A stretch of DNA of 37,484 bases from Methanotrichaceae archaeon. Lineage in GTDB: Archaea; Halobacteriota; Methanosarcinia; Methanotrichales; Methanotrichaceae. Position numbers and translations under genes: made by a program. The notes under the pieces were generated by a model, which worked only from the letters and a program-made list of their open reading frames with translations, had not been told where the DNA came from and made no database searches. Positions within the stretch are counted from its first letter, which is position 1, and every line of letters begins with the position of its first letter. Shown here piece after piece: positions 22,228-27,238 of the stretch. The stretch is from NCBI GenBank assembly GCA_022865315.1, contig JALHSR010000118.1:1-37484 (forward strand), read 5' to 3'.

Positions 22228-22689
22228 TCAAATCCTAGCGCTGGTTTTCTTGTACTCTTTCTCGCTGAATAGAACCTTATACTCCTCTACGCTAGTGGCA
22301 TCGGAAAGCTCTTTGGCAATTCGCAGGCAATCTTCTTTGCTGCGAGAATGGATAACTGTATAAAGATTATAAGGCCAATTATGAGCGAGTTCCCTCTCAT
22401 AACAATGGGTAACCTCCTGCGAAGAGGCTAAAATCGTTCCTACTCTTTCTAAATCTTGTGGAGCTACTTTCCATGCAACCATGGCGTTAGCAACAATACC
22501 CAATGCTCGATGCCCCATAGTTGCAGCAAAACGCCTTATTATCCCTTGTTCAGTCATGAGCTTTAGCCGCTTAATTACTTCCTCGTCGGATATTCCAAGT
22601 TCCTCACCCAGAAGGAGGTAAGGTTTTTCCGTGAGTTCTATACCATTTTGAGCTGCTCTTAAAAGCGAAAAATCCAGAGAATCAATCAT
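22228..22689 (-). CDS. ahbB: Siroheme decarboxylase subunit AhbB-like (Lrp/AsnC-type)
   Basis: The 153-residue protein has an Lrp/AsnC-like winged helix (GEELGISDEEVIKRLKLM) plus the ferredoxin-like core of siroheme decarboxylases. VTHCYERELAHNWPYNLYTVIHS matches the conserved HCYER...WPYNLYxxxH block of AhbB, and MGHRALGIVANAMVAWKV is also AhbB-like. With AhbA, the enzyme decarboxylates siroheme to 12,18-didecarboxysiroheme in the alternative heme pathway. No ahbA or ahbC/D is in the window. It overlaps the upstream beta-helix gene by ATGA, and its own stop overlaps the TTG that could begin the next gene. A purely transcriptional role is less likely given the neighbours. Confidence 0.82.
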   Translation of the reverse strand: MIDSLDFSLLRAAQNGIELTEKPYLLLGEELGISDEEVIKRLKLMTEQGIIRRFAATMGHRALGIVANAMVAWKVAPQDLERVGTILASSQEVTHCYERELAHNWPYNLYTVIHSRSKEDCLRIAKELSDATSVEEYKVLFSEKEYKKTSARI

Positions 22690-24848
22690 TTCCAGCCTCC
22701 GGGATCTTGGAATGGATATTTATCGATGCCTTGGGTCCGAATCTCCTTAATCGAATTTCCAGGATTTCCTGAAACCTCGTGATCGCTCCAATAATTGCCA
22801 CCTAGCTTTGGACCCGCATTCCATTGATTAATCCCATTATCAAGTGCATTCTGATAGCCATTTTCAACGAAGATGTTGTGATATAAGAGATTATCTTTAC
22901 AATCTACGAGGTTGACGCCAGAAATCTCATTACGGATAAAATTGTTCTCTTTAATCTCGCAAAGAGATGAAAAACTCATTCTGAGACCATATCGAATGTT
23001 CTGATTCAGATTGTTGCCCTCTATTTTCGCTTTTTGGGAAGATTGGACGAAAACACCTTGACTGTTATTTAGAGCGCTATTTCCTCGTAATTCAGCACTC
23101 GAGAGCTGCTCCAGAACTATGCCATCTAGTTTATTTTCTTTTAAACTATTATTTAAAATTTGACAAGCATTAGATCCAAAGAGAGCAAGACCCCGCGAAT
23201 TCTGTTGCATTTTATTTTCTGCGATTAAGCACTTATGGGAGTTGATTAAAGCGATCCCATCATCTTTATTTTGATTGGCGGTGCAATTGATGAGGCTACA
23301 CAGACGACAGTTTACCAGTGAAATACCTTTGCCTGACATATAGGTGTCTGATGAAGTCAGGCTCAGGTTTAATGAATCCAATAATTTAAAACCAACCTCT
23401 TCACTGCCCAATGCAGTATCATTAAAAAATTGGCCATTTTTAGAATCTGTGGCCATAAAACCAATTTTGCATCCATCTGCCAAACTACCGTTCACTATCC
23501 AGTTTGAGGATCTCATAATCGCTATACCTTCTTCGCTATGCGAAATATTGCTTGCACGAATAGCGCAGCCAATAGAGTTCACAATAAGAATGCCGGCAGT
23601 GCTGTTGGATATATTTTGATTTTGAATGCTGACATTACTACAACCTATTAAGCCCACGAAGCCATAGTCATTTGTCACATTAAGATCGCTTTTATTTATT
23701 AGATAGCATATCGGCTTTCCGTCGGCTAGGTTAGAGCGATCAATATCCTGAATATAAAAATCGAAACTCGATAAAGCCAAAGGAGCGCTGGAGATTTCGC
23801 CTGAATCAATACGCAAATTAAAATGATTTTTGTTCATGGAATTGTTCCGCAAGAAATTCTGTATTGAACCCCTCAAAGAAATTCCATAATTGTTACTATG
23901 AACTTTGTTACTGTTTAGAAGATTGATGACAGAGTTGGTTAGAAGAATGCCGTTGCCATTTCCGATAAGCTCATTTTCTAGGAACATATTGCTACGAGAA
24001 TTATTCGAATAAATGCCTGCTCGTTCATTATTCTTGCAGAGGTTATCGCTCAGACTGTTATTATCGCTTTCTCTCAAGCTGATTCCTAATTTACAGTTAT
24101 TTATATAATTTTTAGAGAGGTTGTTGCCGTCTGAGACTAAAAGGTCAATACCACTTAGGTATTGGCCAGAGATATTATTATTTTCTATCCAATTTCCACT
24201 AGATTGGGATAGAGTAATGCCAAAAAACTGACCGGTTAAACTATTGCTTGATAACGTATTCTCGGTAGATGAGATAATTTCAATGCCTGTTCCGGTATGA
24301 AAACTGCATCCGTTTACCTCATTTAATGAACCATTTTTGATGGATATACCCTTATTTCCCCTGAAAGTACTGTTAATGATATTGCATCTTGAACTCGCTA
24401 ATTCCATTCCTACTTCAGAATCTAAATGACATTCTTCGAAAGTGTTATTGACACCCTTTACACTTATGCCAATGGATCCTTTTAAATCGCAATGACCAAT
24501 GAGATTACCTGAGGACTCGACAAACAAGACCTCGCTCTTCCCAGCTCCGATTAACGATAAATTCTCAGCAACGCAACCAGGAGCGTTTATGCGTAAAGCG
24601 TTACCATCATGGCCATTTATGATGACAGCGCCTTTAGCGGTCAATCCAATAATTCTGAGAGTTCGGTCAAGTAAAATGCCTTCGTATTCACCTGGCTTGA
24701 CAAGTATAGTATCTCCATCATCCGCAATTAATATTGCCTGAGATATGGTTTTAAAATCTCCCTCCCCTAATGGATCAACTACAAAAGTACTCCCTTCAGT
24801 GGTGAATACAAACATTAGAAATCCCAAGAAGAACCAAGACCATTTCAT
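22686..24848 (-). CDS. Secreted parallel beta-helix (NosD-like) repeat protein
   Basis: The 720-residue protein has an apparent Sec signal peptide (MKWSWFFLGFLMFVFTTEGS) followed by FVVDPLGEGDFKTISQAILIADDGDTILVKPGEYEG, the usual entry of NosD/CASH-domain proteins. From about residue 60 it is built of beta-helix rungs rich in Asn and Ser: N-x-I-x-x-N, LENNxIS and GIxLxxSxxNxIxxN, with LYHNIFVENGYQNALD, GGNYWSDHEVSGNP and IDKYPFQDP at the end. No C-terminal anchor is visible, so it may be secreted or loosely attached. The stop overlaps the ahbB start (ATGA), so it leads the tetrapyrrole operon. Its job is unknown; NosD proteins assist copper-enzyme assembly in denitrifiers, but nothing here shows that. 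Confidence 0.85.
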   Translation of the reverse strand: MKWSWFFLGFLMFVFTTEGSTFVVDPLGEGDFKTISQAILIADDGDTILVKPGEYEGILLDRTLRIIGLTAKGAVIINGHDGNALRINAPGCVAENLSLIGAGKSEVLFVESSGNLIGHCDLKGSIGISVKGVNNTFEECHLDSEVGMELASSRCNIINSTFRGNKGISIKNGSLNEVNGCSFHTGTGIEIISSTENTLSSNSLTGQFFGITLSQSSGNWIENNNISGQYLSGIDLLVSDGNNLSKNYINNCKLGISLRESDNNSLSDNLCKNNERAGIYSNNSRSNMFLENELIGNGNGILLTNSVINLLNSNKVHSNNYGISLRGSIQNFLRNNSMNKNHFNLRIDSGEISSAPLALSSFDFYIQDIDRSNLADGKPICYLINKSDLNVTNDYGFVGLIGCSNVSIQNQNISNSTAGILIVNSIGCAIRASNISHSEEGIAIMRSSNWIVNGSLADGCKIGFMATDSKNGQFFNDTALGSEEVGFKLLDSLNLSLTSSDTYMSGKGISLVNCRLCSLINCTANQNKDDGIALINSHKCLIAENKMQQNSRGLALFGSNACQILNNSLKENKLDGIVLEQLSSAELRGNSALNNSQGVFVQSSQKAKIEGNNLNQNIRYGLRMSFSSLCEIKENNFIRNEISGVNLVDCKDNLLYHNIFVENGYQNALDNGINQWNAGPKLGGNYWSDHEVSGNPGNSIKEIRTQGIDKYPFQDPGGWK

Positions 24849-24985: not shown

Positions 24986-26224
24986 ATGCTGGTTCCTTTC
25001 CGAATTTTAATAGTCGAAGATGATCCTGAACATGCTGATCTAATTAGGTTAGGTTTCAAGAAGCACGATGAGTTTTTCTTAGATTTCGTCTCGACAGGAG
25101 AACAAGGGCTCGAGATGACCGCTCATAATTCCTATGACTTAATTTCAATTGACCTTATTCTTCCAGGCATCAGTGGACTTGATGTCCTTGTTAACATTCG
25201 AAAGCTTGATCCCGATATACCTGTAGTCATGGTATCGGGGCGTGGAACTGCGGATCTAGTGGTTGTGGCCTTCGAGAACCGAGCTACTAAATATGTTGTA
25301 AAAAGCTTGGAGAGTTTCAGGAGCATGCCTTACATTTTCGAAAATCTAATTCAAGAAGCTCGGTTCAAAATTAGCGAACGCAAGATGAAAGAACAGATCG
25401 AACGCTCTGAGAGAGTCCATAGAAGCGTCGTGGAGAATGCATTAGCTGGTATCTACATTTTGCAGGAGGGATTGTTTAAACTAGTAAATCCGAAGCTTGC
25501 TGAAATATTTGGATATGATCCTGACACATTAATCGGCAATCACTTCTGGCAGTTGGTAAAACCTGATGATATAGAATGCATAAGCAAATTGGGGGGCAAC
25601 CAGCATACACCTGCGCCAGTATACGAGTCGAAGATATTGCGTAAAGATGGAGAAACGCGTTGGATTGAATTCAGAACCGTGCCCATTGAGTATGAGGGGC
25701 ATAGAGCTATTCTCGGAAATCTAGTTGATATAACGCTACGAAAAGAACGAGAGATCTCGCTACTTGAAACCAATCGAGAGCTGACTGTTATCAACAAAAT
25801 TCTCAACAGGACCATCAATACCGAATCTGATATAGAAAAAATGCTGGAAGATACTTTGGAAGATATTGTTTGCGGAATAGACGGAGCAAAGATAGGTGGA
25901 ATATTCCTTAATGAAAAAGAGGGGTTAGTACTAAAAGCTCTCAACGGCTCTGTAGAAGAGCTAATTTCATTCATAGAGGGAGTGGATCTTAGCAGCCTAA
26001 TGAATGCAACTGGATTCATTAAATGTGATCATAGATCGGCATATCAGTGGATGTCCGCTCCAATAATCTTCGATGGGATAAAGGAGGGTGCTATAATTGT
26101 AGCTTCAGAGCCCGTTGATAAAAACAGAGCTCTTGCTTTCCTGGAAAATGTAATTAGACATTTAGGCTGCTTGATAGAAAGCTATAGGCAGCATACATCT
26201 ATGCAACATGCCGTTGAGCCTTAA
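24986..26224 (+). CDS. Receiver-PAS-GAF regulator without kinase domain
   Basis: The 412-residue protein is a three-domain signalling protein. Residues about 6-125 form a receiver domain with the acidic pocket Glu11-Asp12-Asp13 in VEDDPEH, phosphoacceptor Asp56 in SIDLILPGISG, Ser in VVMVSGRG and Lys in KYVVKSLES. About 135-255 is a PAS domain (YILQEGLFKLVNPKLAEIFGYDPDTL ... WIEFRTVPI ... LGNLVDITLRKER). About 275-395 is GAF-like. There is no HisKA/HATPase or DNA-binding domain, so the output is unknown. It may be a partner of a separate histidine kinase or a sensory component whose own kinase is lost. It starts at ATG 24986 and has no same-strand neighbour. Confidence 0.85.
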   Translation: MLVPFRILIVEDDPEHADLIRLGFKKHDEFFLDFVSTGEQGLEMTAHNSYDLISIDLILPGISGLDVLVNIRKLDPDIPVVMVSGRGTADLVVVAFENRATKYVVKSLESFRSMPYIFENLIQEARFKISERKMKEQIERSERVHRSVVENALAGIYILQEGLFKLVNPKLAEIFGYDPDTLIGNHFWQLVKPDDIECISKLGGNQHTPAPVYESKILRKDGETRWIEFRTVPIEYEGHRAILGNLVDITLRKEREISLLETNRELTVINKILNRTINTESDIEKMLEDTLEDIVCGIDGAKIGGIFLNEKEGLVLKALNGSVEELISFIEGVDLSSLMNATGFIKCDHRSAYQWMSAPIIFDGIKEGAIIVASEPVDKNRALAFLENVIRHLGCLIESYRQHTSMQHAVEP

Positions 26225-26261: not shown

Positions 26262-26712
26262 TTAGATTTTGCCTAACCTTTGCAGCGTCGTTGCATGGCT
26301 GGCAAATAATACTGCGATCATGAACCAGCCGGAAAATTGACGAGCCAGCAATTTCCTGTGGATGCAAAGCATCTGCAAATGTAGCGATAATGATTGTTAT
26401 CAACCTATCTGCACGACCCATAATCCCTCCATACAACTGACCTAGATGCAGTGCCTGAAGCCTGCGTTCTGATATAGCTTGTCATCAGCGCCCCAAAGCG
26501 GATAGGAATCCGATTGGCCAAAGCACCATCTTTTAGGCGAAAGATTGCATTTAAAAACACTAATAATGCCGCAATAAAAACTAAGCGGACTTCAAAGGTG
26601 GATAAAAGTAGAATCCTGCAGAAGCGGCCGCGAGACAAGAGATACTAAAGATAGCGGATTTGGCGAGATTCCGAATATTTTGCGGCAACCATAAGGGGTC
26701 AATTGCCAACAT
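26262..26712 (-). pseudogene. Decayed CDP-alcohol phosphatidyltransferase (archaetidylinositol-phosphate-synthase-like)
   Basis: No single frame works, but pieces of one protein appear in order. About 26681-26635 reads KIFGISPNPLSLVSLV. 26634-26602 reads LAAASAGFYFY. About 26586-26500 reads LVFIAALLVFLNAIF then DGALA. 26497-26453 reads GALMTSYIRTQASG. 26436-26335 reads YGGIMGRADRLITIIIATFADALHP. 26333-26262 reads GWFMIAVLFASHATTLQRLGKI-stop. The pieces match the N-terminal region, the DGxxA part of the CDP-alcohol motif (the preceding Asp is absent), the TSYxxTQA loop and the C-terminal membrane segment. At least four frame changes are needed. The block between DGALA and GALMTSY, which should hold GxxxDxxxD, is missing. 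It begins at ATG 26712 just after the AK6 stop, as if it was once the next gene of that operon. An intact copy elsewhere would explain tolerance of the loss. Confidence 0.85.
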
Positions 26713-26716
26713 AGAT

Positions 26717-27238
26717 CTATTCCAAAATCCATCCAGAGTCAAGAAAATCCTCCAGCCAGTCTACCTGTCCAGGCGTAAATCTTATTTCACCCTTTATCAC
26801 TCGAATTATTAGCCCAGCAACTTGTTCTGGAGTTTTTCCAGTGGTATCTATTTCATCCACTTGATAACAATTCTCTACTGCCTCCGCCAATACGATATCT
26901 AGAGCCTCAGCTTCTAAGTTTTCGCGAATCTTCTTTTCATTATATCCCCTTGACTCCAACCTCTTTCTTAGTTCTTGCGGATTCAGTCTGAGAACAATAG
27001 CTTTCTTTGCAAAGAAATGGGAAAAATGACTATCAAGAATAAGAATATCTGCAGTATCCAGTTCACCCAGATGATCATCTATGCCATTCATGTCGGCCTC
27101 TAAACATCCCCTTTCCGGATCCATGCCAAGACAAAGACCCTCATTGACGAGGTCGTTTATGCCTACGATTCTATAGGGAAGAAGCCTAGATATCGTGGTC
27201 TTTCCTGTGCCTGGAGTACCCGTAAGTGCTATCTGCAT
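26717..27238 (-). CDS. Adenylate kinase, AK6/Fap7 type (P-loop)
   Basis: The 173-residue NMP kinase has a Walker A GTPGTGKTT at residues 7-15, a short NMP-binding segment (INDLVNEGL), ILDSHFSHFF (Walker B-like), then LRLNPQELRKRLESRGYNEKKIRENLEAEALD, the LID region characteristic of the Fap7/hCINAP/AK6 family, ending in RFTPGQVDWLEDFLDSGWILE. AK6 proteins act in ribosome small-subunit maturation and as adenylate kinases. The start ATG 27238 overlaps the hisC stop by 10 bases. Confidence 0.93.
   Translation of the reverse strand: MQIALTGTPGTGKTTISRLLPYRIVGINDLVNEGLCLGMDPERGCLEADMNGIDDHLGELDTADILILDSHFSHFFAKKAIVLRLNPQELRKRLESRGYNEKKIRENLEAEALDIVLAEAVENCYQVDEIDTTGKTPEQVAGLIIRVIKGEIRFTPGQVDWLEDFLDSGWILE

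Follow-up and report, generated by a model that had tools for sequence, protein, structure and literature searches.

Relic of an operon-linked CDP-alcohol phosphatidyltransferase gene in a Methanotrichaceae archaeon and the putative acceptor of its intact relatives

The window analyzed here, a 37,484-nucleotide stretch of contig JALHSR010000118.1 from a draft Methanotrichaceae genome (3.03 Mb in 353 contigs, 97% complete), carries on its reverse strand, at positions 26742–26274, what is, judging from its sequence, almost certainly the non-functional remnant of an operon's third gene. The explanation that best accounts for the findings jointly, and that we consider very probable, is that a hisC–AK6–headgroup transferase operon has been caught here in the middle of deleting its last gene, whose intact form appears to encode an archaetidylglycerophosphate synthase. 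The finding is a genuine pseudogene from an already known enzyme family, and the lesion is in itself ordinary. Its value lies in the place of this family in a conserved operon for whose transferase the acceptor has been stated to be undecided (PMC8305020): related methanogens, some with the gene, some with it broken and some without it, amount to a natural experiment on glycerol versus inositol.

The first two genes of the operon are intact in the window, each with an open frame and a recognizable domain: a hisC-type aminotransferase (PF00155; 27229–28284, reverse strand) and an AK6-type kinase (PF13238; 26717–27238, reverse strand). At the far end of the relic lies a convergent open frame on the forward strand (24986–26224) encoding a response regulator with a PAS domain. 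Such a convergent neighbor is common to many relatives, and in genus g11 of the family sample described below a PAS gene follows the transferase too. Beyond it, the reverse strand encodes (22686–24848) a 720-residue protein with an N-terminal hydrophobic stretch and, by eye, NosD-type β-helix-like repeats.

Between AK6 and the PAS gene, only short frames are found. A profile built from 15 intact same-family orthologues (alignment A1) was run over this spacer with frame changes allowed, and the resulting alignment traces a CDP-alcohol phosphatidyltransferase from 26742 to 26274 on the reverse strand, covering residues 1–195 of 202, with eight frame changes and one 37-residue deletion (residues 77–113) in about 470 bases and no stop within the aligned codons. 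The alignment scores 343 half-bits, against a mean of 33 (sd 5) and a maximum of 65 for 400 dinucleotide shuffles, 46 for the highest-scoring of 278 other window tiles and 24 for the opposite strand. The first-pass annotation had described pieces of this enzyme lying in order in shifting frames, and these scores bear it out. A separate HMM search, run over the entire genome with A1, recovered the relic unprompted (57.9 bits, E = 1.9e-15), together with a second piece of it at 19.8 bits; the ordered similarity and the HMM match place the relic by descent among the CDP-alcohol phosphatidyltransferases. The PF01066 model itself gave no match to the relic, presumably because the similarity is split among short frames.

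Read along the reverse strand, the alignment comprises residues 1–15 (26742–26698), 16–24 (26698–26672), 25–36 (26672–26637), 37–47 (26637–26605) and 48–76 (26605–26521), the last containing the first half of the catalytic (CAPT) motif. After the junction of the 37-residue deletion (26520–26521), it continues with residues 114–122 (26520–26494), 123–134 (26494–26459), 135–176 (26457–26332; the longest piece, beginning QALHLGQLYGGIMGRADRL) and 177–195 (26330–26274). The gene had been thought to begin just after the AK6 stop, but its former start codon, TTG (26740–26742), lies inside the 3′ end of AK6, giving an overlap of 26 nt. In the cases read among intact relatives, the transferase overlaps AK6 by 14 nt. 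Thus, both the gene order and the AK6 overlap of the hisC–AK6–transferase operon are seen at the relic locus.

The catalytic motif is destroyed. Functional PF01066 members have the motif D-x2-D-G-x2-A-R-x(7,8)-G-x3-D-x3-D in a single open reading frame of about 200 residues, and the relic has neither. Where relatives read FDAVDGALAR, the relic reads FRLKDGAL: the first aspartate (D1) is replaced (D70 to R), whereas D2 and G1 are kept. The A, R, G2, D3 and D4 positions are gone with residues 77–113, so that the earlier observation of a removed block holding the last part of the motif holds true, with the substitution of D70 in addition. With D1 substituted and these five positions deleted, an active enzyme cannot be made. 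Over 158 aligned residues, the relic is 54% identical to the g11 orthologue and 43–51% to others, and over the same columns functional orthologues are at least 53% alike (median 60%). It also keeps 42 of the 57 aligned invariant residues. Because identity stays near the level of orthologues, most invariants persist and no stops have arisen, the decay looks recent relative to the genus split and seems to have proceeded mostly via insertions and deletions.

In a draft as fragmented as this one, with its 353 contigs, errors of sequencing or assembly might be suspected of having broken up an intact gene, yet they are extremely improbable as the source of the frame breaks. Eight frame changes fall within 470 bases beside open frames for AK6, hisC and the PAS protein, errors would have to account for the 37-residue deletion and for substitutions at 15 of the 57 invariant positions (D1 included), and the gene is wholly absent in related genera. 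We give equally little credence to the idea that a fragment is still made and functional, for example as a short membrane peptide from a 77-codon frame. Frames of 71 and 77 codons do remain open, but they depart from the old reading frame, the catalytic motif is destroyed, and no trace of such a fragment is seen in the losers looked at. The evidence for a pseudogene is instead the usual combination of disabling lesions here, intact neighbors and an intact orthologue at the same site in relatives.

The distribution of the gene was followed in a family sample of 50 genomes with genera labeled g1–g11, g6 being left out of the present/absent call. The intact gene is present in seven genera (g3, g4, g5, g7, g9, g10 and g11) and lies directly after AK6 in all of them; the g3 copy, at the same site, has an assembly gap inside and is open on either side. 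These intact copies at the same site uphold the proposal that an archaeal phospholipid-headgroup enzyme was lost in the window, whose genus, g1, is in the relic state. The A1 profile search found the operon gene in none of the 26 genomes of g2, which we take to be Methanothrix proper, and in none of g8; several g2 genomes are incomplete, so that single absences weigh little, and the more complete ones all agree. Among the family's genomes, we take G015 to be Methanothrix soehngenii (M. concilii GP6), G014 to be M. harundinacea and G016 to be M. thermoacetophila. Relics were sought at seven loci of losers (L006, L007, L008, L009, L012, L013 and L019), and none were found there, the scores being at shuffle level; the space after AK6 is closed, taken by another gene or, in L007, a spacer without similarity.

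A tree from AK6 and HisC only had been too weak (p-AU 0.046), and RpoB was added, giving a species tree based on 1121 columns. Its topology, (g8,(g1,(g3,(g11,g2)))), is well supported except for the separation of g11 from all of g2. The losers require three changes on this tree, and a single loser clade is rejected (p-AU 0.0008). Because the losers do not form one clade, the gene was probably lost at least three times in the family, and the window is one such loss caught midway. One ancestral loss in the g8–g1–g3–g11–g2 clade, followed by regain through transfer in g3 and g11, would take three changes on the tree as well. This scenario is improbable, however: the g11 copy occupies the ancestral site with the 14-nt AK6 overlap and falls inside the family's gene clade, the g3 copy is also at the ancestral site, and the window retains a relic, so its gene was still recognizable after g8 split off. 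Repeated loss, the history we prefer, spared AK6 in the losers examined, and both hisC and AK6 have open frames in the window; AK6 is therefore independent of the third gene.

A survey of the remaining CDP-alcohol transferase genes, as had been proposed, returned two intact PF01066 genes in the genome: a pssA (L002) and a PIP-synthase-like gene of the L001 type, which groups with the PIP-synthase-like clade in the transferase tree described below. The first-pass annotation had suggested either a takeover by another copy or an end to archaetidylinositol synthesis. Both of these kinds of copy also occur in relatives whose operon gene is intact; therefore, no new copy replaced the lost gene, and a takeover is unsupported. 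As for inositol, the window's genome has an intact gene for myo-inositol-1-phosphate synthase, which every family genome sampled has kept; the losers are no exception, and they also keep the L001-type gene. One of the losers, M. concilii GP6 (taken to be G015), makes a phosphoinositol lipid. At L002 (1288–3322), the pssA (archaetidylserine synthase) gene adjoins genes for a serine decarboxylase and archaeosortase A, an arrangement that fits NCBIfam's protein-sorting set. Two candidate markers failed: PgpA (PF04608), considered for archaetidylglycerol synthesis, is present in nearly every family genome (archaeal members of PF04608 include CobZ), and matches to PLDc_2 (PF13091), considered for cardiolipin synthesis, do not track the operon gene.

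The operon is not confined to this family. Its gene order recurs in haloarchaea and other methanogens, and hisC–AK6 adjoins the transferase in 16 of 16 loci (L227 and L229–L243), which come from families resembling haloarchaea and other methanogens. For nearly all of the Methanosarcinaceae loci, neither AK6 nor hisC turned up next to the transferase. Loci of other families with the operon order score 160–270 bits against the family alignment. In Haloferax, HVO_1297 (aisA, synonym pgsA2) belongs to the same protein family and forms with hisC (HVO_1295) and adk2 (HVO_1296) a three-gene operon conserved in haloarchaea (PMC8305020). Going by locus numbers, its gene order is the same as that of the relic's intact relatives; HVO_1297 is intact, whereas the gene in the window is decayed. 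The aisA annotation rests on 25% identity to MTH_1691, and whether the acceptor is glycerol phosphate or inositol phosphate has been named an open question (PMC8305020).

Comparative sequence evidence makes glycerol phosphate the likelier acceptor, and the intact enzyme is probably an archaetidylglycerophosphate synthase, which would move the archaetidyl group from CDP-archaeol to glycerol phosphate. Its loss would mean that archaetidylglycerol is no longer made via the operon route, with serine/ethanolamine and inositol headgroups still being made, so that the likely consequence is the loss of archaetidylglycerol and not of archaetidylinositol. With slightly less confidence, we also lean towards the broader proposal that the operon transferase now labeled aisA or archaetidylinositol phosphate synthase is the archaeal archaetidylglycerophosphate synthase, dropped at least three times by Methanothrix and its neighbors, which would hence be without archaetidylglycerol. 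The archaeal archaetidylglycerol synthase has been described as biochemically uncharacterized (PMC4244643, PMC9385802). We favor glycerol because of four observations: the co-occurrence of the gene with inositol-phosphate synthase, the residues that distinguish two transferase clades, a gene neighborhood in family f5, and the synthase and L001-type genes retained by the losers.

Co-occurrence was examined in 296 genomes of the phylum, with an A1 match at E < 1e-40 counted as the operon gene and a PF01658 match as the inositol-phosphate synthase. The operon gene is present in 246 of the 296 genomes, 140 of which have no PF01658 match; conversely, 45 of the 50 genomes without the operon gene have one. 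Although the 296 genomes are not independent, the pattern holds family by family: the gene is present and the synthase absent in 30/30 genomes of f15, 24/24 of f22, 13/13 of f18, 12/12 of f17 and 10/10 of f12, and in f8 (probably Archaeoglobaceae) the synthase is present without the operon gene in 38 of the 41 genomes. Thus, the intact relatives do not show the co-occurrence with inositol-phosphate synthase by which an archaetidylinositol phosphate synthase would be recognized. Strong matches to the operon gene occur in all genomes of f12, f17, f21 and f22, which we infer to be haloarchaeal, and haloarchaea make phosphatidylglycerol-type lipids (PMC8305020).

The transferase tree (85 sequences, MTH_1691 not among them) separates an operon clade with the pattern SYxGTQAQ...GRADR from a clade with SYTRARAE...ER that includes f8 and a second Methanosarcinaceae-type copy; this deep split has moderate support (SH-aLRT 82). 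Among solved structures, the one nearest in sequence to the orthologue profile is that of the M. tuberculosis PIP synthase (MtPIPS; 6h53, 6h59 and 6h5a; E = 2e-17), for which residue roles have been described (PMC4634129, PMC6506517). The SYTRARAE clade resembles the MtPIPS sequence SYIKARAE, whereas the residues matching MtPIPS K135 and R137 are G and mostly Q, respectively, in the operon clade, so that the intact relatives do not show the PIP synthase pattern of K/R-135 with R-137. The R137Q substitution merely halves the activity of a PIP synthase (PMC6506517). Both clades retain R155 and R195, which are thought to hold the phosphate of the acceptor (PMC4634129); such conservation would be expected if each of the two acceptors carries a phosphate. 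In two f5 genomes (G282:C24, L247; G309:C34, L246), the inositol-phosphate synthase match has a PIPS-like gene on the same strand at a distance of about 0.6 kb, and no operon-type gene was found in either genome. A further transferase clade, with the pattern KPVVYAE...GRPET and without the R155 of PIP synthases, is formed by the Methanomicrobia-like L252, L253, L254 and L249.

That the lost enzyme was an archaetidylinositol phosphate synthase, so that archaetidylinositol is no longer made, is possible but unlikely. In its favor, NF040950, the NCBIfam model for archaetidylinositol phosphate synthase (the superfamily member typified by MTH_1691), is the top NCBIfam model for the intact relatives, and the operon's Haloferax gene, HVO_1297, bears the aisA annotation (PMC8305020). 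Against it stand the inositol-phosphate synthase retained here and throughout the sampled family, the lack of a PF01658 match in 140 of the 246 genomes that have the operon gene, and the existence of a distinct PIPS-like clade, whose position 135 is K or R and which adjoins inositol-phosphate synthase in f5; with a PIPS-like L001-type copy also kept in the genome, the suggestion that archaetidylinositol ceased to be made is not favored. The four family members scanned score 148–166 bits against NF040950, below its curated cut-off of 180, and some Methanosarcinaceae-type members score 180–208 bits. If glycerol phosphate is the acceptor, as we prefer, many genes of haloarchaea and methanogens may be mislabeled as archaetidylinositol phosphate synthases, and NF040950 labels may mix two activities. 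Some operon-type genes pass the NF040950 model (L195; G026, 208 bits).
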